Source of the DNA: Enterobacteriaceae endosymbiont of Plateumaris rustica
GTDB taxonomy: Bacteria > Pseudomonadota > Gammaproteobacteria > Enterobacterales > Enterobacteriaceae
DNA: 64,000 nucleotides
Assembly: GCF_012562965.1 (NCBI RefSeq)
Contig: NZ_CP046228.1
Span: 425,808 to 489,807 of the forward strand
Reading direction: 5' to 3'
Position numbers and translations under genes: made by a program. This document shows, one piece after another, positions 12,553 through 60,608 of the stretch (positions are counted from its first letter, which is position 1; each line of letters begins with the position of its first letter). Under the pieces are notes generated by a model, which did not search any database, was not told the origin of the DNA, and saw only the letters and a program-made list of their open reading frames with translations.

Positions 12553-14324
12553 TAATATTTTAACTATAATAAAAAAATGAAGTATTAAATCTATAAATTT
12601 AAATAAAATTTATAAAATAATTGATAGATTTGTTAAAAAATTAAAAAATATATCTATATCAAAAATAAAATTTATATTTACAATTTTATAAAATATTACT
12701 ATTTTTAATATTCATATTATAATTATAAAAATTATAGCTAATCTTATTTCAAAATAATCTTAACTATTAATTTATGACAATAAGATTATTTATTAATTCT
12801 TCATTTAAAAAAAAATTTTATAGTTTAATTTCAACTATATAAATTATATTATCATATTTTATCTATGATGAAATAAATAAATATTATTAATTTCTTTTAA
12901 AAGTATATTTAAAAATAATTTAAAATTATGCATAAATTTATTGATTATAAATATAATATAAAATTTTCTTATAAAGTTGTTAAATAATTAGAAGGAAAAT
13001 ATTTAATTAAAAATAGAATTACAGGAAAAATTTATTTAAATACTCAATTTTTATATATTTTAATATTTTCATGTTTATTTACTAAATATTATTCTTCAAA
13101 AAAAATAGATTATATAAAAAATTTTATAATGCTATTTTTAATTTTAAAATTTCTTTACCTACAATAATTCTGAAGTTTTCATACTTAATAAACAATTTAA
13201 TTCATGTACTTTTACATTGAATATTATGTCATACAATAATTAATATTATTATTAAATATATTTTTCATAAATATAGAACATATTCGTACTGAAGAAAATC
13301 CTATTAGAAATAAAAAAATTTTTAGATGTATTCCTTTTTATAAATATTTTAAACTAAAATAAAATTTTGTTCTTAAGTAGGACTTAAAAAAAAAAGAAGA
13401 AATATTTTTTTCTATTATAAAATCTTAAAATTATTAATTTATTAGTATTAAAAATAATATAAGAACAAAAAATAATAAAGTTTATTATATAGATTATAAA
13501 GTACAAAATAAATAAATTATTATATAAATAATTAATTAATAAAGAAATGATTACATTATTTATGTCTTTCAAATGTACTAAATTTATATGATTTTTTCAG
13601 ATTAAAAAAATTCAATTACTTTATAAAAAATATAAATAAATATTTATTTTCATAAAAAAATCTTACTGATACAAATTTATTTTTATTAATTATTCAATAA
13701 TGTACATCTACTAAAAAACATATATTTAAAATATTGATGGTTATAATATTATTTTAATTTTATTTCTAGTATAACTCTAATTAAATAATTTAATTTATAT
13801 TTAAAAATTACTCTTTTAACAAAATTTTTAAATAATATTTTAATATTAATATAGAAATTGGATTATATATGTTATCTACTTTTAATTTAAGAATAATAAA
13901 TAATTTAAGTGAATTAAAAATATTATCAAATTTAATAGTTAAAATATTAAATTATTTATTAAATTATCAAGAATATTTTATTACAGTAGCAAAAATATTT
14001 CTTTAAGAAAAAGATCTTTAAGTATAGATGTAATTAATTTTATTTATTATTTAAAAAAATAACTTTCATTATTTTGATAATAGTGAATATTTAAATTTAA
14101 TTAGTTTAATACAAAAATTTATAGATTAATCAATTTCATCAAATATTAATTATTACTATAAAAAATTTATTAACAGTAAAATATCAATGTAATAATTATT
14201 AAAAGATTTGTTAAGAAAATATCAATTAAGAATAAAAACTTTATACTACTAAAATACTATAGATAAAAATAACATAAATTCCATAAAATCTGATATTTTT
14301 CATTATGAATCTTATATGATTTGA
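12553..14324 (+). pseudogene. nrdA: nrdA pseudogene, ribonucleotide reductase class Ia large subunit
   Basis: Degraded copy of the gene whose product makes dNDPs from NDPs. Reading through stops and frame changes recovers E. coli NrdA blocks in order: SINLNKIYKIIDRF near 12590, LKNISISK, then KFIDYKYNIKFSYKVVK, LEGKYLIKNRITGKIY and TQFLYILIF from 12930, NPIRNKKIFRCIPFYKYFK near 13300, YKVQNK near 13490, STFNLRIINNLSELK from 13876, LLNYQEYFITVAK, then YLNLISLIQKFID and LLKDLLRKYQ with KTLYY near 14090-14250. The C-terminal region ends at a TGA at 14322-14324 and has lost the terminal cysteine pair. Many in-frame stops and several deletions (the segment after the active-site region is missing) make it nonfunctional. 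It is unlike any open frame of the window. Confidence 0.9.
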
Positions 14325-14331
14325 TAAGATT

Positions 14332-15420
14332 TATTAATTACTATTTTAATAGTAAAAAATAATTAATTAAAAGAACCTATATTTTTAGAAAAATTTATAA
14401 ATATAACTAAATACGATCAACTAAAACATTATATTTTTAAAAATTAATTGAAAAATAATTAAGTTTTTTTGGAAACTTAAAAAAATAGATATATTATGTA
14501 ATCATATTTACTATCAAAATTTATCTGAATATGAAAAACATATATTTATTAGTAACTTAAAATATCAAATTTTACTAGATTCTATTTAAAGAAGGAATGT
14601 AAATATAATATTATTAATATTAATATTAATTTTTATTTTGAAATTGAAAAATTGTAATTGAAACGTTATCTTTTTTTGAAACGATATATTTTAATCCTTA
14701 TACTAATATTATTAATGATCCTTCATTAGTTTTTTATGATATTATTATAAATAAAAATATTATTTTAAAAATAATAGATATTATTAATTATTATAAACTT
14801 ATTAAAATGACAAATTATTAAAATGTATTTATGAAGAAATTCATTTAATTAATAAAACAAAAATTATTATTGATGTATAAGAATTAAAAAAATTATATTT
14901 ATGTTAAATGAATATTAATATTTTAAAATTAATAAGATTTTATATTACTTTTGTATTTTTTTTTACTTTTGATAAAAAATAATTAATAGAAAGTAATGTA
15001 AAAATTATTCGTTTTATAGCACATGATAAATATCTATCTATATATATAATATATAAAGAAAATAAAGATATAGATAGAAAAAATTATTATTAAATATTGT
15101 TTTCTGAATATTATTAATTATTTTGAATACTATCTAATAGAACAAAAATAAATTAAATATTTATTTTCTCATGAAACTATAAAGGTTTTAAATAAAAAAA
15201 TTTTATGTCAATATATTAAATATATTACTAATGTAAGAATAAAAAAATTATATTAACTTTATTTTTTATGATTAAAAAATTTATAATATGGATTAATTCT
15301 TAGTTAATTTCAGGTAATATAAAATAGTTCTTCAAGAAAATAAAAGTTAATTCTTATTTAGTTAAACAAGTTAATTCTATAGTAAATATAAAAGATTTTA
15401 ATAATTTTAATTATAATTTC
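14332..15420 (+). pseudogene. nrdB: nrdB pseudogene, ribonucleotide reductase class Ia radical subunit
   Basis: Remains of the diiron-tyrosyl subunit, directly after nrdA as in E. coli. Recoverable pieces in order: LKEPIFLEKFINITKYDQLKH near 14365-14430 (E. coli [21 protein letters not shown]), NDPSLVFYDIIINKNI near 14715, a LRELKKKLYLCLM-like IKKIIFMLN and IRFYITF near 14880-14960, ESNVKIIRFIAHDK near 14990, then LNKKILCQYIKYITNVRIKK near 15185-15250 and the C-terminal QVNSIVNIKDFNNF near 15370-15410. The frame changes repeatedly and stops are frequent. The iron-ligand glutamate of the ARDEALH motif is not preserved (AHDKYLS). It is followed by a clean hairpin that was probably its terminator. 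Confidence 0.88.
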
Positions 15421-15422
15421 AT

Positions 15423-15452
15423 TATGACTGTTATAAAATTATAACAGTCATA
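15423..15452. terminator. Hairpin between nrdB pseudogene and arcD
   Basis: The arms 15423-15436 and 15439-15452 (TATGACTGTTATAA and its complement) form a perfect 14-base stem with a two-base loop. It lies just past the end of the nrdB remnant and about 125 bases beyond the stop of the convergent antiporter gene. Its perfection in decayed surroundings suggests it still acts, probably as terminator of the antiporter transcript. Confidence 0.5.
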
Positions 15453-15578
15453 TAACTATATTGAATAATATTATTATATATAATATATTTCTATTAAATT
15501 TAATAAAGAAAAAATTGATCATAATAATAAAAAAATAAAATAAATTTTTCTTTATTATTTAATAATAAAAATTTTAAA

Positions 15579-16877
15579 TTATATATTTTTAATAATAATA
15601 AAAAATATTAATCCAGGAGCATATAAAATTAATGATAATAATAAATGCAAAAGACCAGAAGCATATAACAACCACATACCATATATACACGATCCCATAC
15701 CTATAAATATATGTAATATATTTTTTTTGTAAAAAGATATTTTTAATAAATAAGCTCCAACTAAAAAATAAGGAACTAATATCATTTCAGATGATAAAAC
15801 TAATAAATTATTATAATTTAGTTTAGTTAACCAAATTAGAATTAAACATAATTGCATACTACTACTTGTAAACCAAAGTGCAAATGAAGGTGTTTTATTA
15901 ATATTTTGTTTAGAAAAACATTTAGGAAAAATTCCATGTTTTGAAGCTATGTATGGAACTTCAGCTGCCATAATTGCCCAACTCAAATATGCTCCACAGA
16001 CAGATATAATTAATCCTAAAACTATAATTATATTACCCCATTTACCAATTAATATTGTCATTAAACCAGCCATAGATGGATTTTTCATATTAGCTAAATC
16101 TATTCTATTAATAACTCCTAGAGATAATAATGTAACTAATAAGTACACACATAATGCTATTAGAACTGCTAATAATGTAGCTTTACTTACATCTTTTTTA
16201 TTTTTAGCTTTAGAAGATAAAATTACCGCTCCTTCTACTCCAATAAATACCCATAAAGTAATTAACATTGTATTTTTTACTTGTTCCCATATCGGAAATC
16301 CAGATTTAATTCCAATAAAATCAATACTAAATTTTTTAAAATTAAAAGCTAATATAGATAAAAATATAAATATAACTAATGGAAGTAATTTTCCTAAAGT
16401 AGCAATTATATTAATAATTGCAGCAGTTTGAGTACCATTTAATAGTAAAAAATGTACAGACCAAAGTAAAATAGAAGCTGCTAATATAGATTCCCATGTA
16501 TTACCATTACCAAAAATTATATAATTATAATGATCAGTAAAAAAACTTATCGCAGAAAAAACAATAACTAAATAAGAAACATTAGCAATAACTGCACATA
16601 ACCAATAACCCCAAGTAGAACAAAATCCTATAAGTTCACCAAATCCATCTTTAGCATATGCAAAAATACCACCATCGAGATTAGGTTTTAATTTATGAAG
16701 TAATAACATTGAAGTAGCTAAAAAAGTAATTCCTATACCAGTAATAATCCATCCTATAATTAATGCAGCAGGACTTGCAATAGCTGCCATATTTTGGGGT
16801 AAACTAAAAACACCTGCACCCAACATAGAACTAATAACTAATGCTGTTAATGATTTAAGATCTAATTTTTTATCCAA
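15579..16877 (-). CDS. arcD: ArcD-type arginine/ornithine antiporter (APC superfamily)
   Basis: Inner-membrane exchanger of the basic amino acid/polyamine antiporter family. It has 432 residues and about 12 hydrophobic segments. The N-terminal substrate motif SSMLGAGVFSLPQN, the SPAALIIGWIITGIG segment, GFGELIGFCSTWGYW and the family block WVFIGVEGAVILSSKAKNKK near residue 215 match ArcD/YdgI rather than the lysine- or putrescine-specific members. The start codon is TTG at 16877 with AAAGGA upstream. It is less drifted than most genes here, which suggests selection. Exact substrates (arginine, ornithine, lysine) are inferred from family only. Confidence 0.85.
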   Translation of the reverse strand: MDKKLDLKSLTALVISSMLGAGVFSLPQNMAAIASPAALIIGWIITGIGITFLATSMLLLHKLKPNLDGGIFAYAKDGFGELIGFCSTWGYWLCAVIANVSYLVIVFSAISFFTDHYNYIIFGNGNTWESILAASILLWSVHFLLLNGTQTAAIINIIATLGKLLPLVIFIFLSILAFNFKKFSIDFIGIKSGFPIWEQVKNTMLITLWVFIGVEGAVILSSKAKNKKDVSKATLLAVLIALCVYLLVTLLSLGVINRIDLANMKNPSMAGLMTILIGKWGNIIIVLGLIISVCGAYLSWAIMAAEVPYIASKHGIFPKCFSKQNINKTPSFALWFTSSSMQLCLILIWLTKLNYNNLLVLSSEMILVPYFLVGAYLLKISFYKKNILHIFIGMGSCIYGMWLLYASGLLHLLLSLILYAPGLIFFIIIKNI

Positions 16878-17000
16878 AATAATTCCTTTAAATATATAAC
16901 ATTATATTAATTTTATATAAATTTAAATAAAAAATATTTTATTATTAAAATATTCAATTTTAAATAAATAATATTTTACAAAATCATTATTATAATATAA

Positions 17001-17753
17001 TTACACAGGATTATTTATATCAATAAAATTAATTTTTAGATTATAATTATTTTGTAACCATTGACCTAACATAATTAAACCACCTTTTTCAGTAGCATGA
17101 TGTCCTGCTGATATAAAATTAATACCATATTCTGTGGCTATATGTATAGTTTGTTCTGATACTTCACCTGTAAGAAAAACATCAATATTAAAATTTACTA
17201 TTTCTTCAAAAAATTTTTGTCCTGCACCACTACACCAAGCAATATTATTAATAATTTTCGGTGCATTTTTTCCAAAATGTAAAGGTATACAATTTAATTT
17301 AAATTTAATAAGATTTATTAAATCTTTAATATTTAAAGGAGGATTAAAATTACCATAAAAAATAAAAGGATTAATTTTATCTATAAAATTAATATTTAAT
17401 AAATTTGCTAAAAAAATATTATTACTTAGTTTATTATTAATATCTAATGGAATATGCCAACTATATAAATTTATATTATTAGATAATAGTGTTTTTAAAC
17501 GACGACGTTTCATTCCTCTAATAATTAAAGGTTCATTTTTCCAAAAATATCCATGATGTACTATAATTGCATCTACTTTTTTAAAAACAGCTATATCTAA
17601 TAAATTTTGACATGCACTTACTCCAGTAACAATATTTTTAATATTATTTTTTCCTTCTATTTGTAATCCATTAGGGACATAATCTTTGATATTAATAGAA
17701 TTTAATTTTTTATTGATGATTCTTTCTAATTCAATATTATTTATCATTTTCAT
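17001..17753 (-). CDS. ybgI: Nif3-family dinuclear metal protein YbgI
   Basis: Conserved cytosolic protein of the Nif3/GTP cyclohydrolase I type 2-like family; its reaction is not firmly known. About 250 residues (E. coli YbgI 247). It follows the E. coli protein throughout: ELERIINKKLN, PNGLQIEG, VTGVSACQ, the metal-ligand VHHGYFWK, RGMKRRRLKTLL, the DIPLD-like WHIPLD, TGEVSEQTIH and the second metal region SAGHHATEKGG. A TTG-initiated extension exists to 17762, but ATGs at 17753 and 17747 fit family length. It is divergent from ffh by about 130 bases. Confidence 0.93.
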   Translation of the reverse strand: MKMINNIELERIINKKLNSINIKDYVPNGLQIEGKNNIKNIVTGVSACQNLLDIAVFKKVDAIIVHHGYFWKNEPLIIRGMKRRRLKTLLSNNINLYSWHIPLDINNKLSNNIFLANLLNINFIDKINPFIFYGNFNPPLNIKDLINLIKFKLNCIPLHFGKNAPKIINNIAWCSGAGQKFFEEIVNFNIDVFLTGEVSEQTIHIATEYGINFISAGHHATEKGGLIMLGQWLQNNYNLKINFIDINNPV

Positions 17754-17883
17754 TTGAAACAAATATATATATAATATTAATAAAATTAATTTTAAATTAT
17801 ATTTAATTTATTTTTAATAATATATTAATTATATATTATTTAAAATTTAAATAAATAATATTTTATTAATAATAGGAATATAA

Positions 17884-19260
17884 ATGTTTGAAAATTTACG
17901 CAACAAATTATTAAAAACATTATCTAAAATAAGTAATTATGGTAGATTAACAGAAAAAAATATAAAAGATACATTAAATAAAATATTTAATAATTTATTA
18001 GAAGCAGATGTATCATTAAAAGTAATTAATAATATTATTAATACTCTTAAAAAAGATGCTATTGGAAAAAAAATTAATAATAGTTTTACTCCAGGACAAG
18101 AATTAATTAAATTAATTAAAAATAATTTAATAAAAATCATGGGAGAATCTAATGTTAATATTAATTTATCTATTCAACCACCTGCAGTAATTTTATTAGC
18201 AGGATTACAAGGTGCTGGTAAAACTACTAGTGTTATTAAATTAGCATATTTTTTAAAAAAAAAATATAAAAAAAAAATTTTAGTTGCATCAACTGATATT
18301 TATAGACCTGCAGCTATGGAACAATTAGAAATTTTATCTAAACAAGTAAAAATAGATTATTTTACTTCTAATAAAAATATTTCTTCAGTAAAAATTGCTC
18401 AAGATTCGTTGAATTATGCAAAGATTAATTTTTATGATATATTAATTATAGATACAGCTGGAAGATTACATATAGATAATAATATGATGAATGAAATAAA
18501 AAACATTCATAACTATATTAATCCTATAGAAACTTTATTTGTTGTTGATTCAATGACAGGACAAGATGCTGTTAATAGTGCTAAGACTTTTAATAAAATA
18601 TTACCATTGACAGGAATTTTTTTAACAAAAACGGATGGTGACTCAAGAGGTGGAGCAGCTTTATCAATTAGATATATAACTAATAAACCAATAAAATTTA
18701 TTGGTACTGGTGAAAAATTAGATAAAATAGAAGTTTTTTCTCCGAAAAATATTGCTATCAGAATTTTAGGAATGCAGGAAGAATTATCTTCTATTAAAGA
18801 TATTAAAAATAAAATTAATAATATTAAAAATCAAAAATTAATAAATAAATTAAAAAAAGGAAAACAGTTTAATATTGTTGATTTTTTAAATCAAATTAAA
18901 CAAATTAATAAAATAGGTAATAATAATATTACAAAATTAATAAATACAATAAATTTTAAAAATATAAATTATTCTACCAATCCAATGTCTAATATTCTTA
19001 ATATTAATAATAATATGATTAAAGAAACTAAAGCTATTATTAATTCTATGACTGCTATAGAAAAAATAAATATTAATATTATGAATTATTCAAGAAAAAA
19101 AAGAATATCTATAGGTTCTGGTATTTCTATACAAAAAATTAATATTATTTTTAAACAATATAATCAATTTAAATTAATATCTAAAAAAATGAAAAATAAT
19201 TATGGAATAAAAAAAATGTTTCGTAATATAAAAAATATTTTTCCAAAAAAAATTTTTTAA
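17884..19260 (+). CDS. ffh: Ffh, signal recognition particle GTPase
   Basis: Binds 4.5S RNA and targets nascent membrane proteins to FtsY and the translocon. It has 458 residues (E. coli 453). The N domain starts MFENLRNKLLKTL; the G domain has the P-loop GLQGAGKTT at residues 107-115, DTAGRLHID and TKTDGDSRGGAALS; the M domain keeps NSMT and the RNA-binding RKKRISIGSGISIQKINI region. Two runs of ten A in the P-loop neighbourhood are intact in frame. It leads into rpsP after 20 bases, the E. coli order. Confidence 0.97.
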   Translation: MFENLRNKLLKTLSKISNYGRLTEKNIKDTLNKIFNNLLEADVSLKVINNIINTLKKDAIGKKINNSFTPGQELIKLIKNNLIKIMGESNVNINLSIQPPAVILLAGLQGAGKTTSVIKLAYFLKKKYKKKILVASTDIYRPAAMEQLEILSKQVKIDYFTSNKNISSVKIAQDSLNYAKINFYDILIIDTAGRLHIDNNMMNEIKNIHNYINPIETLFVVDSMTGQDAVNSAKTFNKILPLTGIFLTKTDGDSRGGAALSIRYITNKPIKFIGTGEKLDKIEVFSPKNIAIRILGMQEELSSIKDIKNKINNIKNQKLINKLKKGKQFNIVDFLNQIKQINKIGNNNITKLINTINFKNINYSTNPMSNILNINNNMIKETKAIINSMTAIEKININIMNYSRKKRISIGSGISIQKINIIFKQYNQFKLISKKMKNNYGIKKMFRNIKNIFPKKIF

Positions 19261-19280
19261 AATGTATAAGGTATTGTAAT

Positions 19281-19520
19281 ATGATTAAAATTCGTTTATC
19301 TCGTCATGGAATAAAAAAAAAACCTTTTTATCAAATAGTTGTAACTAATAGTAAAAGTCCAAGAAATGGACGTTTTATTGAACGTATTGGTTATTTTAAT
19401 CCATTTTCTTCAAATAAAAATAATAGTATTAAAATTAATAAAGAAAAAGTTAATTTTTGGTTATCTAAAGGTGCACTTCTTTCTAAAAGAGTAAATTTTT
19501 TAATAAAACATAATAATTAA
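19281..19520 (+). CDS. rpsP: 30S ribosomal protein S16
   Basis: Small-subunit ribosomal protein of 79 residues (E. coli 82). It starts MIKIRLSRHGIKKKPFYQIVV, with the family NGRFIERIGYFNP motif and the KVNFWLSKGA region. It is the first gene of the rpsP-rimM-trmD-rplS operon, and the following rimM start lies 3 bases after the stop. An AAGGT sequence 8 bases before the ATG serves as ribosome binding site. Confidence 0.98.
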   Translation: MIKIRLSRHGIKKKPFYQIVVTNSKSPRNGRFIERIGYFNPFSSNKNNSIKINKEKVNFWLSKGALLSKRVNFLIKHNN

Positions 19521-19523
19521 TGT

Positions 19524-20069
19524 ATGAATATTATTAAAAATATAGTTTTAGGTCAATTTGGTTCAGTATATGGTATACAAGGATATATAAGATTATTTTC
19601 TTATACTTCTAATAAAAAAAATATTTTTTTTTATAAAAATTTATTTGTTATTGATAATAATTCTTTAATATTACCAATAATATTTACTAAATGGATATAT
19701 AATAATAATTATTATATTGTTAAAATTAATAATTTTAATAATCGTAATGATGTATTTAAATTGGTAAATTATAAAATATATATTTTATATAGTTGTTTAA
19801 TAAAATATAAAAAAATAGATGAATATTATTGGAATGATATAATTGGATGTAAAGTTTTTAATATAAATAATTATAAAAATTTAGGAAAAGTAAAAAATAT
19901 TATATCAACAGGAGCTAATGATGTTCTTGTTATTCAATCTATTATTATTATAAAAAATAAAAAAAATATTAAAAAACAATTAATTCCTTTTATTAAAAAT
20001 CAAGTAATTAAAAATGTTGATTTAATAAAAAATACTATTGAAGTAGATTGGAATTTTCATATTTATTAA
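19524..20069 (+). CDS. rimM: RimM, 16S rRNA maturation factor
   Basis: Binds S19 and assists maturation of the 30S head. It has 181 residues (E. coli 182). The N-terminal domain shows IVLGQFGSVYGIQGYIRLFSYT (E. coli [22 protein letters not shown]). The PRC-barrel domain has EYYWNDIIGCKVFN and GANDVLVI, and the end LIPFIKNQVIKNVDLIKNTIEVDW fits the family. The middle is drifted. It is in the rpsP operon, virtually coupled to rpsP by a 3-base gap. Confidence 0.94.
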   Translation: MNIIKNIVLGQFGSVYGIQGYIRLFSYTSNKKNIFFYKNLFVIDNNSLILPIIFTKWIYNNNYYIVKINNFNNRNDVFKLVNYKIYILYSCLIKYKKIDEYYWNDIIGCKVFNINNYKNLGKVKNIISTGANDVLVIQSIIIIKNKKNIKKQLIPFIKNQVIKNVDLIKNTIEVDWNFHIY

Positions 20070-20086
20070 TATAAGAAAAATTATGT

Positions 20087-20848
20087 ATGTGGATTGGTAT
20101 TATTAGTTTATTTCCTGAAATGTTTAAATCAATTACTAATTATGGAATTATTAGTAAAAGTATTAAAAAAAATCTTTTAACAATAAATTATTGGAATCCT
20201 AGAGATTATACAAAAAATAAATATCATGATGTAGATTATAAAATTTACGGTGGAGGAAGTGGAGTTATATTAAAAGCAGAACCTTTAATAAAATCTATTC
20301 ATGCTGCAAAACATAAAGCGAATAGTTATGTAAAATTAATTTATTTATCTCCTCAAGGAAAAAAAATTAATAAATCATACATAAGTAATTTATTAACTTA
20401 TAAAAAAATAATATTAGTTTGTGGTAGATATAAAGGTATAGATGAACGTATTATAAATTATTATATAGATGAAGAAATTTCTATAGGAGATTATATTCTT
20501 AGTGGTGGAGAATTACCTGCTATGGTTTTAATTGATGTTTTAGCTAGATTAATTCCCGGTGTTTTAAATAAAAAATCGTCAAATGATACAGATTCTTTTT
20601 TTAATAATGGTTTATTAGATTGTCCATATTATACTAGACCTAAAATATTAAAAAATATAGGAAAAGTTCCAAAAATTTTATTGTCAGGACATCATGAAAA
20701 AATAAAAATATGGAGATTACAGCAATCTTTAGGAAGTACATGGTTAAAAAGACCTGATTTATTAAAAAAAAGAAAATTAACAAAAGAAGAAAAAATATTA
20801 CTTAATGATTTTAAAAAGAATTATTTTAAAAAAAAATTTAAAAAATAA
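20087..20848 (+). CDS. trmD: TrmD, tRNA (guanine-37-N1)-methyltransferase
   Basis: Makes m1G37 in tRNAs that read CNN codons, preventing frameshifts. It has 253 residues (E. coli 255). It starts MWIGIISLFPEMF and keeps ILVCGRYKGIDERII, the knot GDYILSGGELPAMVLID, and GLLDCPYYTRP with the catalytic aspartate region. The usual YGGGPGM loop is YGGGSGV here, a change in the S-adenosylmethionine pocket. The start is the ATG at 20087; another ATG lies 4 bases earlier in a different frame. Confidence 0.97.
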   Translation: MWIGIISLFPEMFKSITNYGIISKSIKKNLLTINYWNPRDYTKNKYHDVDYKIYGGGSGVILKAEPLIKSIHAAKHKANSYVKLIYLSPQGKKINKSYISNLLTYKKIILVCGRYKGIDERIINYYIDEEISIGDYILSGGELPAMVLIDVLARLIPGVLNKKSSNDTDSFFNNGLLDCPYYTRPKILKNIGKVPKILLSGHHEKIKIWRLQQSLGSTWLKRPDLLKKRKLTKEEKILLNDFKKNYFKKKFKK

Positions 20849-26759: not shown

Positions 26760-29700
26760 TTATTTTATATAAATTTTTATAGGTAACAACCATTTTTCTA
26801 TTAATTTTATTGTTTTTAACCAATTTTTTTCATCAAAAAAATAATTAATTTTATTAAAATATAAATTTTTATTTTTCTCTATAAAATTAAAATTCATATT
26901 CCAAAAATGAAAAAAATATTTTTTTGCTTTTTTTTGTATAAAAATATCATAATTAATACATTTATTTTTTTTATCATAACAATAATCTAACCATTTCCAA
27001 GCACTTTTCATAGGTAATATAATCGGATTATTTAATCCACACACATATCCATCGATATATTTTTTTAATAAAACTATTGCTATATTAGAATTAATATAAT
27101 TAAAACTATATTTAGTATTTTTAAAACCTATAATTGTTGAAGTAAATTCTTTTCCTTTTCTAATATTTATTACACATAAAATTAAATGTTTAATCCAAAA
27201 AGATATAATAGATTTTATATCTATAATTTTAGGTTCATATCTTATATACCCTTTATTATAACTTATAAAATTTATTTTTCCATATAATATTATTTCTGAT
27301 ATATTTATATCAATATACTTAATAATATTATTATATTTATATAATTTTAAATCATTATTAAGTAATTTACATATTTTTTTTTTTTCATTATTCCATAATA
27401 TTTTTCCATAATTACCATAAGGTAAAATTCCTTTATTTAAATAATTATAATAAATTAAGTTAATATTTGTATTAAATATTAAGGAATATAATATTTTTTT
27501 ATCAATTTGGTATTTTGTTAAATAATCTAATGAAAAAGGTTCTATTTCGGAAAATTGAATTTGATTTAAATCATGTAAATATACTCCTAATCTTTGATTA
27601 AAAAATCCTTTTACAGGATCTTTCCAAAAATTTAAAAGATTTTTTATAATAATTTTTTTTATTTTTAATTTTGATAATTTACTAAAATAAATATTTTGTT
27701 TTTTTAAAAAATTATAATTATTAATATTAAAATTTATAAAAATATCATTTTTTTTATTTACATGATATATGTGTTTGATGATACAATCAGATATTTTATT
27801 TTTTTCAATATAGTAGTTATTGTAAATATATTCTAATAACTCAGTAATCAAAATAGAAGGGTATATTTTATTATAATTTATATTTTTATTATCAATATAA
27901 CTTAAATATAATTTTTCTTTAGAAGACATCAATAATTCAAGAAAAAAATATTTTTCTTTATCTAAATTATTTTCATCATGTTTTTTAGGGTATTTCTTTA
28001 TTAAATTAAAAATAACTGGATATGAATTTTTAAGATAATATTTACTATTCATACCTATTACAAAACTAACTTTAAAATCTATTCCATTTAATTGTTCAAA
28101 ATTACAAAAATTAATTTTATTTAAAGAATAATGAAAAAAATATTTTTTTTTTTCTAATAGATTTTGAAATTCTTTAATAATAATATTAATAGATATTTTT
28201 TGTTCATAATTTGAATTTAATCCACTGTCAATAAATAATATTATATTTTTAATAATATATTTCATATATTTATTTGAATCAATATTTGAACAAAAAAAAT
28301 CTGAATATAATTTAATTAAAATTTTTTTCCAATTTTTTATTTTTTGTTTTTTATTTAATTTTTTTTTCCATTTATATAATGTAAATAAAAAATGAGTAAA
28401 TTTACCTAATAATTCTCCTAATATTCCATATATACCATTATATGGTAATATACCATTCCAATTTCCTGAATTATTATCTATAGCATATCCATAAAACATA
28501 CGATATAATCCAAATTTCCAGGTATATTGATCTTTAGTTAAAGAAATTTTTTTGAAATTACTAAAATCTAAATTATATTTAATACCAATATCATTTATCC
28601 AATAACGTAAATATATTAAATCATCTTTATTATTAATAGAAAATTTTTTCGAAATTTCATTATTATCTAATAAATAAAATATTTCTTCAGGATTAAATTT
28701 TTTTGTTGATAAATTTAATAAAAAAAAAAAATATCTGGTATATTAAAAATATTATTTTTATTAAAATCTAAATAAATGTTAAAAGGTATTTGTTTTTTAT
28801 TAAAAATAGAATAAATAAAAGGTAAATATATATTTATATTAGGAGAAATTACAATAATTTCATGTAAATAATAATTTTTATTATTTATTAATTTAATAAT
28901 ATTAAATGATAAAAATTCTATTTCTTGTTTAAGATCTGTAAAAACATTTATTTGTATAGAATCATCTGACATATTAATTTTTTTTTTATTATTCTTTAAT
29001 AAAAAATTTTCTTTTAATAAACTAATATCTTTTTTTATATTATTTAATAAATTTAAAGATTTTATTTTTACAAATGATTCTATCATTCTTGATGATACAT
29101 TTATTAATTTATTTATATTATTTATTCCATAATTTCCCCAAGAAAATAATAATGAATTATAAAAATTATAATTATTATTTATTTGAATATTATCCCAATA
29201 ATGTATACAAGGATTTTTAATTAAGATATGAATTTCTATATATTTTGTTAATTTTTCTAATAATTGTAAATATATTAAAGGTATATTTTGTGTTTCTAAA
29301 ATAAATATTCTTTCCGGTAAAACGGAATATTTAATTTTTTTTTTCTTATTTATAAAAAAATTATATAATCTACTAAGATACCATAATTTTTTACCTAATA
29401 TAATTTTATTATATATAATTATTTGTTTCCATAATTTTGCTTGCCAAATTTGATCTTTATTATTTGGAAAAAATGAGATTTTATCTTTTTCCCATAAATA
29501 TAACCATTCTGGACGATATTTTTGATATTCATCATATAAATTAGCAATTTGAATTGATATTTCATATAAATAATTAGTATTATTTATATTATTTAAATAT
29601 TTATGAAAATTTTTAAATTCAGGTAAAACAACTGTTTTTGGAATAATATTCATCAATTGCCAAGTAATCATTTTTTTATTAAAAATATTACCTTTTTTAA

Positions 29701-29938
29701 TTTGTGGAATAATTTTTATAAATAAATTCCAAATAAATTTTTCTGGATTTATATAACTAATATTAGTATGTATTCCCATTATTTTAGAAAAATAAATTTT
29801 TAAATATGGAATAAATGTTGAATTTGGTAAAATTATAATTTCTGTTTGTAATGGATTATTTAATGGTTTTTTTATAATATTATATTTTATTAAATTTAAT
29901 AAAATATCTAAATTATTAGAACGATATATTGTAAACAT
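26760..29938 (-). pseudogene. recC: recC with a frameshift at a run of 12 T, possibly rescued by slippage
   Basis: RecC holds the RecBCD complex together and reads Chi. The gene is in two open parts: codons from 29938 to a stop at 28715, ending PDIFFFY, and an open stretch from about 28730 to 26760. The break lies in a T12 run (minus strand; A12 at 28720-28731 on plus). With 13 T the frame continues as DIFFFLLNLSTKK and on through FGLYRMFYGYA into the second part, giving about 1060 residues (E. coli 1122). The rest looks functional: it begins MFTIYRSNNLD (E. coli MLRVYHSNRLD), with IEIHILIKNPC, VIGMNSKYY and ILITELLEYI. Family is certain; whether active protein is made is not. Confidence 0.88.
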
Positions 29939-30001
29939 ATTATATATTTTTTATTTATATTAATTATTTTAAAATTTTAAAAAAATTATTAATTTTTCAT
30001 C

Positions 30002-33009: not shown

Positions 33010-33472
33010 AATTAATATAACCTATATTATTTTAGTAATTTTCAATAAAATTATTAATTTTAATTTTAATATATATTTATATATATATAAAAAATACTTG
33101 AAAAAAAAACAAAAAATTATAATAATTATTAAGATAATTTAAAAAAAATTTATAAATAAAATATAAAATTATTTTTTTCTTCTTTAAGAAAATAAATATA
33201 AATTAACTAATTAATAACAATTTTTGTTGTATAGAATATAAATAATTTATGTTTTTATTTTAGATCTATTTTATAAAAAAATTATTTCTTTCTAAAAACA
33301 CTTCTATTATAATATTAAAATTTAATATACAAAAAAAATTTTATTTTTAATAAATATATTAGATATTATAATTATAGAAATTTTATTATTTAATTTAAAT
33401 TATTCTAGACTAGAAATAAGTAATAATATTATAATAGATTATTAAAAAAAATTAAAATAATACTATTTATTC

Positions 33473-33514
33473 ATAAATAATAATAAATTATTATAATAAT
33501 TTATTATTATTTAT
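33473..33514. repeat. Perfect 42-bp A/T palindrome
   Basis: Bases 33473-33490 are the exact inverted complement of 33497-33514, and the six central bases TTATAA are self-complementary, giving a perfect 42-bp palindrome. It contains no G or C. It lies in the largest spacer of the window without a recognisable gene remnant. Confidence 0.85.
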
Positions 33515-33557
33515 AATTAGAATATATATAACTAATAATTACTAAATAATTTAAAAT

Positions 33558-33583
33558 ATAATTTTATTATATAATAAAATTAT
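33558..33583. repeat. Perfect 26-bp A/T palindrome
   Basis: Bases 33558-33583 (ATAATTTTATTAT and its complement) form a perfect palindrome with no loop, 43 bases after the 42-bp palindrome. Also A/T only. Function unknown; cruciform, terminator of a vanished gene or protein site are all possible. Confidence 0.75.
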
Positions 33584-33831
33584 CTAATATTTATTAAAAT
33601 ATTGTTTAATAAATAAATTTATTGTAATTTGTATAAAAATTATAATTATTGTTTACTTATAGTAATTAGTAGCCAAGATGATTTATCTATGCTATTTATT
33701 AAATTTTATAATAATTAATATATAATTATTTATTTTCATAAAAAATTCTTTTTTTTAAAATAAATTTAATAATAATTTTAAAATATAAAATTTTGAAAAA
33801 AATAAATTAATTAAAAATTAGGAAAAAAATA

Positions 33832-43774: not shown

Positions 43775-43958
43775 TTTATTAATTTAAAAATTTTATATAA
43801 ATAAAAATATTTATCTTAATATTTTATTCTTTAAAAGAACAAATATAATAATATTATTATATTAAAATTCATTCATTATATTATAAGATATTAGTAATTT
43901 ATTAAAAATAATTATGTATAAATATATTAAAATTTTTTTATCCATATAACTAAAAATC

Positions 43959-43980
43959 AGATTTATTATATAATAAATCT
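43959..43980. repeat. Perfect 22-bp palindrome after mnmA
   Basis: AGATTTATTAT at 43959-43969 meets its complement at 43970-43980 without a loop. It lies 185 bases after mnmA and 60 bases before the first recognisable purB block. It could be the mnmA terminator or simply chance, since long A/T palindromes are frequent here. Confidence 0.4.
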
Positions 43981-44039
43981 TAATATTAATTAAATATAAA
44001 TTAAGTAAAAGTTTTATTAAATTATTAAAAATTACTTAA

Positions 44040-44610
44040 ACTATTTATTCTCTTAATATAGATCCTTAAAATTATACTACTGAAATATTTTTTATATGAT
44101 ATATTATTAACAATAATATTATTAATTTTAATAAAAATATTTCACAATATATATCATATAAAATATTTTGATAAAATATTATAAAAAATATATTTATTTA
44201 TCAAAACTATCTTATAAAATTAATCATATTTTATTTAAAATAAATAGGAAAAAATTTAATAATGACTAATATAATTATATAGTTTATTACAAAAAAACTA
44301 CTTATTTTAAGATAGTAAATCCTTAATATATTATTTTAAAAAATTGTTTTAAAAAATTCTATAATATTTATTATTATAATTAAAAATATTAAATATTAAT
44401 AAAAATCATTTAAAAAAATTAAAAAAATCAGTAAATAATTGATAAAATAATAAAAATTATTTTAAATATAAGTAATATGAAAAATTTATATAAAATAATA
44501 AAAAATTAATTTAAAAAAATATTTTATTAGAATTAATATATAATTATATTTAAAAAATATTATTAATAATAATTACATTAATAATTCTATAGAATTAACT
44601 AAAAATTTTT
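44040..44610 (+). pseudogene. purB: purB remnant, adenylosuccinate lyase
   Basis: Badly decayed 3' half of purB, which makes fumarate plus AICAR or AMP in purine synthesis. From 44058 the frame reads IDP-NYTTEIFF-YIINNNIINFNKNI, matching E. coli IEPHDYIAELFD and NTILIDFDRDV, and QYISYKIF for GYIALNHF. Near 44255 NLIMTNIII-FITKKLLILR matches NLGLSNAVLQHLASKLPVSR. Near 44400 a KNHLKKLKKS piece matches NRDHLLDELDHN, followed by a PIQTVMRRYGIEKPYEKL-like stretch. Stops interrupt all parts, and the catalytic SSTMPHKVNP loop is not recognisable. The 5' half is deleted: only 265 bases separate it from mnmA. Synteny (mnmA then purB, as in E. coli) supports the call. Confidence 0.75.
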
Positions 44611-44672
44611 AAGTAATAAAATTTAATATATATTAAATTTATTAATTATATTATATTAGCTAGAGCTTATTT

Positions 44673-52141: not shown

Positions 52142-53260
52142 ATGAAACATATTATTATTAATAGAGAACAATTAATTATTCCATTAAAAAATATAGTAAG
52201 TATTATTAATAATAAACCAATAATACCTATTATTAATAATATTTTAATAGAAATTAAAAATAATAATATTATATTTAAAAGTACTAATTTAGAAATAGAA
52301 ATAATTACGTTTTTAAAAAACATAAAAAGTACACATAATTTTTCTATTACTATATCAGGTAAAAAATTTTATGATATATGTAAAAGTTTTCCTATTAAAT
52401 CTAATATAAATATATCAATTAATAATAATAATCAAATAATAATTTCATCTAAAAAATGTAAATTTATTATGTCTACATTACCTTCTATAAATTTTCCAAT
52501 AATTGAATATTGGAAAAGTCAATTAAAATTTTTTTTAACAAATAAAATATTAAAAATGTTAATTGATGCAACATATTTTTCAATAGCAAACCAAGATGTT
52601 AGACAATATTTAAATGGAGTACTATTTCAAATTAAAAATAATATATTAAATATGGTTTCTACTGATGGTCATAGATTATCAATTTGTAATATTTTAATAA
52701 ATGAAATATTAATAAATTATTCAGTTATAATTCCTAAAAAAAGTATAATAGAATTATTACGTTTATTAAATAATACTAATGATATAGTAATAATTAAAAT
52801 AAATAATAATAATATTAGTTTTACATTAAAAAATTTAAAATTTACATCAAAACTTATTGAAAATTCTTTTCCAGAATACACAAAAATTATACCTCAAATT
52901 TTTTACAAAATTATTAAAATAGATCGAATAAATTTAAAAAATGCTTTAACTCGTATTTCTATTTTAGTTAATGAAAGAACAAAAGGTGTAACACTATTAT
53001 TTAATAAAAAATATTTAAAAATATTAGGAAGTAACATTGATAATGAACAAGCAGAAGATATTTTATCTATAGAAGAAAAATATAATGATATAAAATATAA
53101 TATAGAAATATCTTTAAATATTCAATATTTAATAGATGTTTTAAATACATTAAAAAATAAATATATAAAAATTTCATTAATAGATTCTTTTTCTAGTATA
53201 AAAATAGAAGATTTTATTGAAAATAATAAAATTTATTTAATTATGCCCATGAGAATTTAA
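52142..53260 (+). CDS. dnaN: DNA polymerase III beta sliding clamp
   Basis: Ring clamp that tethers replicative polymerase to DNA. It has 372 residues (E. coli 366). Three repeats of the clamp fold are spread over the length; the N-terminal domain (PLKNIVSIINNKPIIPIINNILI), DVRQYLNGVLF, STDGHRLS, the NERTKGVTLLF stretch and the C-terminal YLIMPMRI (binding-groove end MPMRL in E. coli) are recognisable. recF, the usual next gene, is absent; gyrB starts 79 bases later. Confidence 0.97.
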   Translation: MKHIIINREQLIIPLKNIVSIINNKPIIPIINNILIEIKNNNIIFKSTNLEIEIITFLKNIKSTHNFSITISGKKFYDICKSFPIKSNINISINNNNQIIISSKKCKFIMSTLPSINFPIIEYWKSQLKFFLTNKILKMLIDATYFSIANQDVRQYLNGVLFQIKNNILNMVSTDGHRLSICNILINEILINYSVIIPKKSIIELLRLLNNTNDIVIIKINNNNISFTLKNLKFTSKLIENSFPEYTKIIPQIFYKIIKIDRINLKNALTRISILVNERTKGVTLLFNKKYLKILGSNIDNEQAEDILSIEEKYNDIKYNIEISLNIQYLIDVLNTLKNKYIKISLIDSFSSIKIEDFIENNKIYLIMPMRI

Positions 53261-53330
53261 TAATTTACTTAATAGTTTTTATTATTAATTTATATAATTA
53301 ATAAAATTAAATTATTATAAACATAAATGA

Positions 53331-55751
<2,421 letters not shown>

Positions 55752-55862
55752 AATAATAAACACAAAATATTATTAAATATATAATTATTACTAATATTTT
55801 TGAGATTATTTTAATATAATTATTTAATATAAAAAATATATTTTTATATATTATATATATAA

Positions 55863-56123
55863 TTAATAGTAATTAATAGGTTTTATTTTCATAGAATGAA
55901 ATTCTTGATTTTCAATTTGTTCATAATCATTTAAAATTTTTTTATTTATTAATCCTTGTTCAATTTCTCTTAATGCTAAAACTGTTGTTTTATCATTTTT
56001 TTTAGATAATAAAGGACTTTTACCTCTTATTTGTATTTGTCTTGCTCTTTTTGCAGCTATAAGTACTAAATCAAAACGATTACCAATTTTTTTAATTGCA
56101 TTTTCTACGGTTAATCTAGCCAT
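55863..56123 (-). CDS. rpoZ: RNA polymerase omega subunit
   Basis: Smallest core RNA polymerase subunit, which helps fold beta prime. It has 86 residues (E. coli 91). It starts [29 protein letters not shown] and keeps [19 protein letters not shown]. It lies downstream of gmk on the same strand after 39 bases, as in E. coli. spoT, the next E. coli gene, is absent; gyrB converges from the other side. Confidence 0.97.
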
Positions 56124-56162
56124 TATGAACCTATATATAAAAAAATATAATATAAAAATAAA

Positions 56163-56789
56163 TTACTCATTTAATAATTTATTAATAAGATTATTATATC
56201 TTATGGATTGTATTTGTGTTTTTAAATGTTCTGCATAAATAATATTTTTTAAATCAAATATTGCATGATTAATATCATTATTAATAATTAAATAATTATA
56301 TTCATGATAGTGATATATTTCTTTTTTTAATTGTAACATACGTTTATTAATTATATCTATATGATCTTTACCTCTAAGATATAATCTTTTATATAATTCC
56401 TTTTTTGATGGAGGTAATATAAATATACTACAAACTTGAGAAATTTTATTTCTCACTTGTTTAGCTCCCTGCCAATCGATATTTAAAAAAACATTTATAT
56501 TATTTTTTAATATATTCTTAATATTTTTTTTAGAGGTGCCATAATAATTTCCAAATATTTTAGCATGTTCTAAAAATTCATTATTTATTATCATTTTTTT
56601 AAATTTTTTTTTTGATATAAAAAAATAATCTTTACCATTTATTTCACCTATACGTTTAATTCTAGTTGTATAAGAAATCGATAATTTTATATTAAAATTT
56701 AATACATTATTTTTTAATAATAGTTGTAAAAGTAAAGATTTACCAGTACCACTAGGTGCTGAAATAATAAATAAATTTCTTATAGTCAT
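56163..56789 (-). CDS. gmk: Guanylate kinase
   Basis: Phosphorylates GMP and dGMP to the diphosphates with ATP. About 208 residues from the ATG at 56789 (E. coli 207); the longer form from a TTG at 56804 is less likely since the ATG start aligns exactly. P-loop is SAPSGTGKS, then SYTTRIKRIGEINGKDYFFI, EHAKIFGNYYGTS and IDWQGAKQVR. Its retention matters since pyrG, purB and nrdAB are decayed: nucleotide phosphorylation remains while synthesis is being lost. Confidence 0.97.
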   Translation of the reverse strand: MTIRNLFIISAPSGTGKSLLLQLLLKNNVLNFNIKLSISYTTRIKRIGEINGKDYFFISKKKFKKMIINNEFLEHAKIFGNYYGTSKKNIKNILKNNINVFLNIDWQGAKQVRNKISQVCSIFILPPSKKELYKRLYLRGKDHIDIINKRMLQLKKEIYHYHEYNYLIINNDINHAIFDLKNIIYAEHLKTQIQSIRYNNLINKLLNE

Positions 56790-56872
56790 AATCTTATTAA
56801 ACAAATATCAATATATAAAAATTATAATTTATTTATAAAATATTACTTAAAATAATATTAATTATATAATAT

Positions 56873-58213
56873 TTAAATTCCTGAAATCATCATTTCAGAT
56901 ATAAGAATAGATCCACACTGTATAATATTTCTTTTTTCAATATCATTACTAATATCTGAAATAGATAACCATATTTTTTTTAAATTTGAAGATATTGTTA
57001 CTTCACTAACTGGAAATATTATCTTTCCATTTTCAACCCAAAAACCACATACTCCACGAGAATAATCTCCTGTAATATTATTAACTCCATTAGACATCAA
57101 TTCTGTTACAATTAATCCATTATTCATTTTTTTTATTAAAGTATTATAATCTATATTATTTTTATTATTAATATACCAATTATATATTCCTCCAGAATGT
57201 CCATTATTTTCTATATGTAATTTATTTGACGTATAATTATTTAGTAACCAATTTTTTAAAATTCCATTTTGTACTATTACTATTTTTTTTGTACTTACTC
57301 CTTCATTATCAAAAGGTTTAGATCCTAAACCTTGTAAAACATGAGGATCTTCTATAATATTTAACCATTCTGGAAAGATTAATTTATTTAATGAATTAGA
57401 TAAAAATGTTAATTTTTGATAAACATAATATCCATTAATTAATTCAGCTAAATGTTTAAATAAAGAACATGATATTTCACTTGAAAAAATTATTGGAGAT
57501 TTTTGAGTTTTAATCTTACGTGATCCTAATTTTTTTAATGATTTTTTTGCACTATCTTTTCCTAATATTTTAGCAGAATATAAATTAGGAATTGATCTTG
57601 ATATAGAATATGAATAACTACATTCCATTTTATTATTTTCTTGAGCTATAATAGAAAGATATAATGAATAATATGTAGAAATATAACTCTGTAGTATTCC
57701 TAAACTATTTGCAAATATATGAATTGTTGCAAAACTATTAAAATCTCCTCCGTTACTAACAATACGTTTATCTGTATTTACCGCAATTTTTTCACTTTCT
57801 TTAAGAATAAAAATATATTTATTTTTATCTATATTAGAAATATGAAAAAGATCTAAATCAATTTTATTAAAAGCTAGTAATTCATATTTAGGTAATCCTA
57901 AACATATATCATATGTTGTATAATTACTTGAATTTATCGCATAATATATAGTTTTTTTTATATTATTTAATGATAAATTATTTGTTTTAGCAAATCCTTT
58001 TTGATAATTTTTATAAACATTAATAGAAAATGATTCATTATTATAAAATTCTGATGTTTGTGTAGTTCCATTACGAATATTTATATTAAATCCTATTATT
58101 TTTTTAATTGTCATTTCAAAATTTTTAATTTCTTTTTTAGTTAATATTATATAATTTAATATTTTAGATTCTAATATACTACGTTCTTTTATAATTTTTG
58201 AAAATATTTTCAT
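56873..58213 (-). CDS. tldE: TldE (PmbA), subunit of the TldD/E metalloprotease
   Basis: Works with TldD in proteolysis, for example microcin B17 leader removal in E. coli. It has 446 residues (E. coli 450). Strong blocks are NVYKNYQKGFAKTNNLS, LAFNKIDLDLFH, QADKR-like VNTDKRIVSNGGDFNS, GSKPFDNEGVSTKK, SGGIYNW, ELMSNGVNNITGDYSRGVCGFWVENG and VSEVTISSNLK. TldD is not in this window. It is divergent from ppa. Confidence 0.95.
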   Translation of the reverse strand: MKIFSKIIKERSILESKILNYIILTKKEIKNFEMTIKKIIGFNINIRNGTTQTSEFYNNESFSINVYKNYQKGFAKTNNLSLNNIKKTIYYAINSSNYTTYDICLGLPKYELLAFNKIDLDLFHISNIDKNKYIFILKESEKIAVNTDKRIVSNGGDFNSFATIHIFANSLGILQSYISTYYSLYLSIIAQENNKMECSYSYSISRSIPNLYSAKILGKDSAKKSLKKLGSRKIKTQKSPIIFSSEISCSLFKHLAELINGYYVYQKLTFLSNSLNKLIFPEWLNIIEDPHVLQGLGSKPFDNEGVSTKKIVIVQNGILKNWLLNNYTSNKLHIENNGHSGGIYNWYINNKNNIDYNTLIKKMNNGLIVTELMSNGVNNITGDYSRGVCGFWVENGKIIFPVSEVTISSNLKKIWLSISDISNDIEKRNIIQCGSILISEMMISGI

Positions 58214-58329
58214 TTTATTATTTTTTATTTATATTTTATATTAGTTAATTATATATTACTCTTTGACATAATTAATATATATTTGTTATTATTTTAAAAT
58301 TCATTATATTAAATATTAAAGAATATACT

Positions 58330-58863
58330 ATGAACTTAAATAAAGTATCATCTGGAAATAAAGTACCAGATGATATTAATGTAATTATTGAAATATCTTC
58401 AAATTCAGAACCTATAAAATATGAAATAGATAAAAAATTAGGAATATTATTTGTTGATCGTTTCATTTCTACAACAATGTTCTATCCATGTAATTATGGT
58501 TATATAAATAATACATTATCTTTAGATGGTGATCCTTTAGATGTTTTAGTACCTACTCAATATTCTATTTTACCAGGATCTGTTATTAGGTGCCGTCCTA
58601 TTGGTATATTAAATATGACAGATGAATCTGGAGATGATATTAAAATAATAGCTGTACCTCATAAAAAAATTTCTTCAGAATATAATAATATTAATAGTAT
58701 TGATGATTTATCTGTTTTTTTAAAAAATAAAATAGTTCATTTTTTTAAACATTATAAAGATTTAGAAAATAATAAATGGGTCAAAATTAATAAATGGGAA
58801 AATATAGATATTGCTAAAAAAGAAATTTTATTATCTATTAAAAGAATTAATGAAAAATGTTAA
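58330..58863 (+). CDS. ppa: Inorganic pyrophosphatase (family I)
   Basis: Hydrolyses pyrophosphate and so pulls biosynthetic reactions forward. It has 177 residues (E. coli 176). The metal-binding signature DGDPLDVLV lies near residue 65, and [37 protein letters not shown] and [14 protein letters not shown] match. It sits upstream of the pyrG remnant. High conservation suggests function. Confidence 0.97.
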
Positions 58864-59021
58864 TTATATTATATAATATATAATTATTATTAATTTAATA
58901 AGTAATATAATATATTATTATATATAATGGAAGTTATTTTTTTATAAATTATATAATAAAAAATATTATAAATATATATTTGTATTAGTTTTTAAATACT
59001 AAAATTATTGTAATAAAAATA

Positions 59022-60608
59022 TATATAAATTATATTTTTATTACTATAAGAGTAACTTCTTTTTTAGTTAAAGAAGTAACTACAAACTAGTTAAATTCAA
59101 TTTTTGAAAATAGAAATAAAAGTCAATATAATTGAATTAAATTCATATATTAATTTTAGTAGTAAAATTAAATTTCCATCAATGTGGAAAAGTATTTTTT
59201 AACGATAATGATGCTGAAATTAATTTAAATTTTGAATATTATGAATTATTTATAAAAACTATAATGTCTCATTTTAATAATTTTAATACTTGTTATATAT
59301 TCTAAAGTATTAAAAAAAGAAAGAGAAAAAATATCTTGGATATAATAATTAAAGTTATTCCATAATTATTAATATTATAAAAAACATATAACTGATTTAT
59401 AAAAAATAAAGGATATAATATAATTTTAGTAAAAATAGAATATACAGTTAAAAATATAGAATTTTTATCTTTTCTTGAAAATATCAATTAAATATTATTA
59501 GATATAGGAAAAGATAGAATAATTTATATTTATTTAAATAACTAAAAAAATAAAAATAAAACCTACAAAACTTTTCATGAAAGAATTACTATCAATAAAA
59601 ATATAATCAGATATATTATGTTAATTTAGTTACTCAATATCTAATTTTAAAAATATTAAAATTATATCATTTTGTAATTTATCAAAAAAAGTTATTATTT
59701 TTTTAAATGATATTAATTTTATATATAAAATACTTATTTTATTAAATAAATAAAGTTTAGATAATTATGTATATAATAAATTTAATTTAACTTACAGAAA
59801 CTAAACTTACTAAATAGAAAAAAATATTAAATAAAGAATTTAATTTTAAAGATTATGTTAATATTAGTATAATATGAAAATATACTAAATTATCAGATAC
59901 ATATAAATCAGTAATAGAAACATTAAAACGTGAGGGATTAAAAAATCAAATTTATGTAAATATTAAATTCATTAATTCTGAATTAATGAATATTAAGGGA
60001 ATAAATATTTTAAATAAATTTAATAAAATTTTTATTTTTGATAGTTTTAATTCTAGAGGTATTAAAGAAAAATTGAAAACAGTAGAATAAAAGAATAATA
60101 TTCCTTATTTTGAAATATGTTTTAAAATGCATATAATTTTAATTAAATTTTCACGTAATGTTTTTAAAATAATTTATGCAATTTAATTGAATTTAATTTA
60201 AATTACAAAAAATTAATTATAAAATTAATTAATCAAAATAATAATTTCAATTATAATCTAAATATAAAAGAATTATAAAGTAAAATGAGATTAGATAATC
60301 AACAATGTCAATTAAATGAATTAAATTTATTATATCAATTTTATAAATTTAATAATATTATTAAAAGACATCGTCATAAATATAAAGTAAATAATTTATT
60401 AATTTATAAACTTATTCAACATGATTTGTTAATAGTAATAAGATCAAAAAATAAATTATTTGTAGAAATTATTAAAATTTCTAATTATTCGTGGTTTATT
60501 GGTTATCAATTTCATCCAGAATTTATTTTTAATTTTCATAATAATCATTTATTATTTATAGATTTTATAAAATCTTCTATGAAAAAAGTCAATTTAAATA
60601 TTAAATAG
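59022..60608 (+). pseudogene. pyrG: pyrG pseudogene, CTP synthase
   Basis: Nearly full-length decayed copy of CTP synthase, which converts UTP to CTP. From about 59028 the frame reads NYIFITIRVTSFLVKEVTTN-LNSIFE (E. coli [20 protein letters not shown]). Near 59170-59290: FFNDNDAEINLNFEYYELFIKTIMSHFNNFNT. Near 59430: VKNIEFLSFLENI. From 59860: YTKLSDTYKSVIETLKREGLKNQIYVNIK, GINILNKFN and NNIPYFEICF, where the glutaminase cysteine region is. Multiple stops and shifts interrupt it. The last 108 codons (60285-60608) are open and encode the C-terminal half of the glutaminase domain, with RLDNQQCQL, RHRHKYKVNN and QFHPEF. It stops 9 bases before eno, its usual partner. Confidence 0.92.

Follow-up and report, generated by a model that had tools for sequence, protein, structure and literature searches.

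Decay of ribonucleotide reductase genes in the obligate symbiont of the reed beetle Plateumaris rustica and its association with thymidylate kinase loss

Cells unable to make deoxynucleotides must obtain them, and several host-associated bacteria have been described that live in this way. The closest are Buchnera aphidicola Cc and other reductase-less Buchnera, obligate insect symbionts without ribonucleotide reductase and without deoB (PMC10121223). In the parts of that paper (eLife 2023) available to us, the results count 24 of 74 Buchnera assemblies without the reductase and the discussion has 48 of 74 retaining it, i.e., 26 without, while Ureaplasma and Borreliella, which belong to unrelated lineages, are likewise presented as lacking the enzyme and using host-made DNA precursors. 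Moranella endobia is another small insect symbiont that keeps Adk, has a cmk pseudogene and is proposed to make triphosphates with pyruvate kinase, but it keeps nrdAB and dut (accessible sections of PMC3620526). Here, we have analyzed a window of 64,000 nucleotides (bases 425808-489807 of the chromosome, NZ_CP046228.1) from the obligate Enterobacteriaceae endosymbiont of Plateumaris rustica, a reed beetle, in which nrdA and nrdB, the genes for the two subunits of class Ia ribonucleotide reductase, are dead. The genome comprises a chromosome of 498,937 bp and a plasmid of 5,108 bp. This case differs from Buchnera in genus and host order, as well as in that the dead genes can still be read and that sister species show the preceding step. 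The other reed beetle symbionts belong to the same genus, share its gene order and lack purine and pyrimidine pathways (available text of Reis 2020, PMC7289800), whereas the 23 relatives compared here keep nrdAB. Reductase loss itself is already known and recurrent, and the P. rustica case is a new, well-framed instance of it; the literature searched, judged by titles and the beginnings of abstracts, contained no report of this loss, and neither the main text of Reis 2020 nor an EMBO Rep 2025 paper mentions nrd or ribonucleotide, although the supplementary gene tables of Reis 2020 may show the case.

The genus comparison included 24 genomes, namely that of the P. rustica symbiont (G000) and 23 relatives, which correspond to 24 of the 26 entries in Table 1 of Reis 2020 (all but D. 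versicolorea and D. semicuprea). Four relatives are Plateumaris symbionts (G001, P. sericea; G002, P. pusilla; G003, P. consimilis; G004, P. braccata), and the remainder (G005-G023) are symbionts of 16 Donacia, 2 Macroplea and 1 Neohaemonia species. When the intact proteins of the P. sericea symbiont were compared to the window by tblastn, nrdA, nrdB and pyrG were recovered in fragments. The two reductase genes are as follows:

12553..14321, plus strand, nrdA pseudogene (class Ia reductase, large subunit), located with the intact P. sericea symbiont NrdA; start approximate
14355..15408, plus strand, nrdB pseudogene (class Ia reductase, small subunit), located with the intact P. sericea symbiont NrdB

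The nrdA remnant, with approximately 80% DNA identity to the relatives, carries 25 frameshifting indels and, in their frame, 17-20 stops, and it has lost 423 bp to a deletion; that of nrdB has 10 frameshifting indels and 13 stops. Both are thus true pseudogenes, as originally predicted. All 23 relatives have full-length nrdA (760-762 amino acids) and nrdB (376-394 amino acids) followed by the same antiporter gene, and nrdA (PF02867) is intact in 23 of 24 genomes and a remnant in the P. rustica symbiont only. An assembly error was considered as the source of the damage and dropped, because there are many independent lesions, the remnants lie at the expected place and the flanking genes are whole. 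Among the nucleotide genes of the window, the loss of nrdAB is the only special one.

Nothing in the rest of the genome appears to replace the lost enzyme. PF02867, which we take to cover reductase classes I and II, has a single match in the P. rustica symbiont, i.e., the nrdA remnant itself (53 positions, 24.3 bits, 3 stops), and PF00268 (small subunit) has no match anywhere in that genome while matching in 23 of the 24. Intact second copies of a class I/II reductase, pyrG or purB, the outcome that would have spoken against the original prediction, were found nowhere in the whole genome, and its core suggestion of an outside nucleotide supply is supported in this way. A second reductase, either of class III or very divergent, could have escaped notice considering that reductase classes diverge widely in sequence. 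However, E. coli NrdD was not found in any of seven genomes when included in a joined query (no profile search was made), and the plasmid's three open reading frames (ORFs) of at least 80 amino acids match an adhesin, prephenate dehydratase and TrfA, which leaves a hidden enzyme very improbable. Since no intact class I/II reductase is present genome-wide and NrdD was not found, DNA precursors must come from outside.

The form in which they enter is constrained by the nucleotide pathway that remains. The gene for thymidylate kinase, tmk (PF02223), is present in 21 of the 24 genomes and missing exactly in the symbionts of P. rustica, P. consimilis and P. braccata. In the P. sericea symbiont it lies between fabF and holB and is 621 bp long; in the three genomes without it, the alignments flanking this place are apart by only approximately 90 bp (P. 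rustica), 288 bp (P. consimilis) and 323 bp (P. braccata), leaving only short gaps. Two joined queries of single E. coli proteins were searched against seven genomes (G000-G004, G010 and G021). The first, consisting of 12 proteins, found prs, pyrH and adk in all seven, gmk in five (G000-G004) and tmk in four, and none of cmk, tdk, dcd, udk, ndk and thyA in any of them. The second, with NrdD, NupC, NupG, DeoB and PykF among its queries and searched in the same style, found pykF in all seven and neither the nucleoside importers NupC and NupG nor deoB in any; the absence of deoB extends to six reductase-bearing relatives and hence is not diagnostic of reductase loss. With respect to thyA, this gene lies directly beside lgt in E. 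coli K-12, and here the gap between recC and lgt is only 63 bp (29939..30001), so thyA is gone from that place. In the two non-Plateumaris genomes of this set (G010 and G021), gmk was not found, and dut was found in G021 alone of the seven.

Because no reductase, Tmk or Cmk was found, dTMP and dCMP cannot be finished in the P. rustica symbiont, and dTTP and dCTP (or the diphosphates) must enter. This bears directly on the possibility that deoxynucleosides are taken up and then phosphorylated by kinases of the symbiont itself, a form of supply that the original prediction had also entertained. Such salvage would fit the missing reductase and the persistence of adk, gmk and pyrH, and an E. coli line is described that lives on deoxynucleosides by means of a Mycoplasma kinase (PMC10121223, in the part available). 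On the other side, tmk is absent, tdk, cmk, ndk, nupC and nupG were found in none of the seven genomes (the dNK family PF01712 was not searched), and without Tmk and Cmk both dTMP and dCMP would remain unfinished; on balance, we regard salvage from deoxynucleosides as unlikely. Ureaplasma-type salvage uses nucleoside kinases, and this arrangement is not seen in the P. rustica symbiont (tdk in none of the seven genomes, tmk absent).

A tree based on four proteins (1,240 columns) had the topology ((rustica,(consimilis,braccata)),(sericea,pusilla)), with a support of 100 for the split of rustica, consimilis and braccata from the rest and 94 for sericea plus pusilla. Parsimony places the losses of tmk and purB, as well as a frameshift in recC, in the common ancestor of the rustica, consimilis and braccata symbionts and the loss of nrdAB on the rustica branch, whereas pyrG disappeared independently in rustica, consimilis and pusilla, and also outside Plateumaris. 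Faster evolution following reductase loss was considered and dropped, since the length of the rustica branch (0.072) does not exceed that of the path to the sister species (0.088-0.095).

We consider it quite probable that ribonucleotide reduction was abandoned on the terminal branch leading to the obligate symbiont of P. rustica and that the host of this symbiont supplies finished deoxynucleotides; the host cell is the most likely source, as inferred from the gene content described above. Since the sisters P. consimilis and P. braccata have symbionts without tmk but with nrdAB, import of dTDP or dTTP probably preceded the loss of the reductase and made this enzyme dispensable. In this scheme, the ancestor of the genus would have been without thyA and would have imported thymidine nucleotides; the ancestor of the rustica, consimilis and braccata symbionts would then have lost tmk and switched to importing dTDP or dTTP; and a carrier with a loose base preference, accepting other deoxynucleotides as well, would have rendered nrdAB redundant, with decay in rustica only. 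The symbionts of P. consimilis and P. braccata should thus already import dTDP or dTTP, barring an unrecognized thymidylate kinase. Adk and Gmk may act on dAMP and dGMP, so these two monophosphates could in principle be raised by the kinases that remain, and pyruvate kinase could turn diphosphates into triphosphates, standing in for Ndk. CTP would be supplied from outside in the same way as deoxynucleotides, and such a supply would explain the parallel losses of pyrG.

A second symbiont or a gut bacterium might instead provide the precursors. Buchnera Cc, which is reductase-less, lives together with a Serratia partner (PMC3213167, in the part available), unlike anything seen for the P. rustica symbiont. 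The accessible text of Reis 2020 contains no mention of a partner that came to our notice, with Wolbachia appearing in the reference list only. Supply by the host is also simpler, given that import of dTDP or dTTP is already implied in two sister species for which that text likewise showed no partner, and we therefore hold partner supply to be improbable.

The Plateumaris sisters represent a natural experiment, with reductase and tmk, reductase without tmk, and neither of them in different species, and this set indicates in what form precursors have to be taken up through the membrane and which species should be examined for the carrier. More tentatively, and with somewhat less than even confidence, these five symbionts may have caught in the act a stepwise hand-over common to small insect symbionts, in which tmk loss and dTTP import open the way to general deoxynucleotide import, after which reductase and CTP synthase fall; the symbionts of P. 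consimilis and P. braccata would be poised intermediates.

The distribution of both genes was also analyzed in a family sample of 119 genomes, 31 of which are small, not exceeding 0.8 Mb (rounded sizes); here the reductase was represented by PF02867 only (class I/II large subunit), and class III was not searched. A PF02867 match was present in 111 of the 119, the P. rustica remnant included, and all eight genomes without a match were among the 31 small ones. Together with the P. rustica symbiont, these eight make nine small genomes without a working class I/II reductase. Intact tmk was found in 2 of these 9 (G075 and G138) and in 21 of the 22 reductase-bearing small genomes (Fisher p 0.0001; G108, whose copy is in two frames, counted as present). 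This result changed little when the two genomes of the genus were left out (p 0.0004), when G108 was treated as broken (p 0.0004) or when the less complete G100 and G138 were removed (p 0.0001). In genomes of at most 0.5 Mb, tmk was not intact in 7 of 8 reductase-less genomes versus 1 of 7 reductase-bearing ones (p 0.01). Individual genomes depart from the pattern in different ways: G114 has no PF02867 match and a broken but recognizable tmk, and G106 has a reductase without tmk. Intact pyrG was present in 2 of the 9 and in 16 of the 22, respectively (p 0.017). Reductase loss recurs, and it usually occurs together with tmk loss; because the two losses are coupled in several genera, they amount to a rule that can be tested and not just to a catalogue of missing genes. 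The expectation of the original prediction that loss of both the class Ia reductase and CTP synthase would be very unusual even in tiny symbionts is not supported by these counts: 8 of 31 small genomes have no class I/II large subunit, and 7 of the 9 small genomes without a working one also have no intact pyrG.

Several observations weigh against host supply of finished deoxynucleotides or against the proposed order of events. No importer was found: NTT-type nucleotide carriers (TLC family, PF03219) had no match in the 24 genomes, although the control genomes were also without a match. For ndk, cmk, thyA and tdk, the negative results come from one joined query against seven genomes in which each was represented by a single E. 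coli sequence, and the P. rustica symbiont may possess an unrecognized thymidylate kinase; Pseudomonas putida, in which tmk is disrupted, is described as having the activity nonetheless (PMC10653934, in the part available). Loss of tmk first is not universal either, because G114 has a tmk pseudogene without PF02867 and G075 and G138 keep tmk without PF02867. Furthermore, the family genomes are not fully independent, small size alone favors every loss, G100 (84%) and G138 (96%), both of them reductase-less, are less complete, and the P. rustica symbiont is represented by a single assembly. As for carriers, the transport genes among the scanned ORFs of the window are those of PotABC, an amino acid antiporter, PtsH, PtsI, Crr and the exporter CydD. 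Nucleoside import in Buchnera has been called unclear (PMC3246468, in the part available), and the literature searched, as far as its accessible text goes, describes no deoxynucleotide importer for such insect symbionts.

The other remnants of the window and the guanylate kinase gene are listed below:

59019..60608, plus strand, pyrG (CTP synthase), pseudogene flanked by ppa and eno, with indels and stops; start approximate
43775..44672, plus strand, old purB remnant inside the mnmA-potA gap, identity above shuffles
33010..33831, plus strand, old fau remnant (5-formyltetrahydrofolate cyclo-ligase) inside the lysA-ptsH gap, identity above shuffles
56163..56804, minus strand, gmk, intact guanylate kinase (TIGR03263, 222.4 bits; cut-off 160.45)

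The pyrG remnant contains 9-12 frameshifting indels and 9-10 stops (the comparison with the P. braccata symbiont overran that gene's stop), and the pyrG profile finds only four fragments in the genome, none above cut-off, in agreement with its original description as decayed. In the genus, pyrG is above cut-off in 2 of 24 genomes (symbionts of P. sericea and P. braccata) and broken in those of P. rustica, P. pusilla and P. consimilis; 5 further genomes have only partial matches, which lie within other open frames (E 2e-4 to 1e-3), and the remaining 14 have none. The purB remnant had been called a clear pseudogene: it is decayed and sits at the expected place, but it is old and barely recognizable, being represented by two short tblastn pieces (E 0.001) and a 446-bp deletion, with 67.7% identity to the P. 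sericea symbiont, whereas shuffled sequences average 55.8% and reach 58.0% at most (20 composition shuffles each for purB and fau). Two of 24 genomes (symbionts of P. sericea and P. pusilla) have purB above cut-off, and the other 22 have no match at E 0.001. The losses of purB and pyrG, each intact in 2 of 24, are thus the norm of the genus. The fau remnant, which tblastn alone does not recognize, has 69.8% identity, compared to 56.8% on average and no more than 60.4% after shuffling; fau is intact in the other four Plateumaris symbionts and lost only in that of P. rustica. Its decay means that the losses are not confined to nucleotide genes, although folate metabolism touches this area. The proposal that all decayed genes except recC belong to nucleotide synthesis is hence valid for nrdA, nrdB, purB and pyrG and had overlooked fau, whereas the intactness of gmk was correctly recognized. 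Losses in the window affect 4 of 5 nucleotide genes versus 1 of approximately 45 others (Fisher, approximately 1e-4), a figure that covers the window only, without the rest of the genome, with a hand-counted gene total and a category picked after the losses had been seen.

The relative age of these losses was estimated from the share of conserved first- and second-position G/C sites still kept. This share is 153/355 (43%) in nrdA, 91/208 (44%) in nrdB and 134/272 (49%) in pyrG, compared to 27/154 (18%) in purB and 15/73 (21%) in fau, and to 93-94% in the intact genes ffh (198/211) and eno (280/301, measured against one relative only). By this measure, which agrees with the order obtained by parsimony, the deaths of nrdAB and pyrG were roughly simultaneous, and those of purB and fau were earlier. 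Unequal degrees of decay, as proposed originally, are therefore seen in the older purB and fau, but nrdAB and pyrG are equal within error.

The same measure bears on the concern that the sequenced beetle carried a defective symbiont, i.e., a dying or individual-level variant, for which the existence of one assembly only may be cited. The reductase genes have lost over half of their conserved G/C sites, which points to long replication without nrdAB, and the window genes compared with the P. sericea symbiont are whole except for the five remnants, the recC shift and a shortened antiporter gene, making such a variant highly unlikely. The antiporter gene adjoins dead nrdB, and its product has 432 amino acids versus 462-470 in the 23 relatives (approximately 30 fewer):

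15579..16877, minus strand, basic amino acid/polyamine antiporter

A different situation was found for recC, which the original prediction had counted among the decayed genes:

26760..29938, minus strand, recC, open apart from a single frameshift at a T12 run (28720-28731)

In the symbionts of P. consimilis and P. braccata, recC is likewise frameshifted at this position, at T10 runs (G003:C1:467871-467880 and G004:C1:467026-467035), while in those of P. sericea and P. pusilla it is not. Both halves are open and 76% identical to the intact P. sericea symbiont protein, and the part after the run is open for 656 codons, whereas the longest open stretch obtained in 200 shuffles was 110. We have dropped recC as a pseudogene on account of this single shift, common to three relatives, and the two open halves. 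Because it has been kept open over such a length, recC is probably still used, perhaps through slippage on the T run. Slippage rescue at homopolymer runs has been described for other symbionts, and the shift is a candidate for such rescue or for a split RecC.

In addition, ATP synthase genes are present in the window (five ORFs scanned), and the available text of Reis 2020 reports them for Plateumaris symbionts only. One 12.4-kb query against a plasmid collection gave no match. The plasmid of the P. rustica symbiont carries an ORF (L112, 184-2610) for an inverse autotransporter of 808 amino acids with an adhesion domain (PF11924 and PF05689) and also encodes prephenate dehydratase and a TrfA-like protein.

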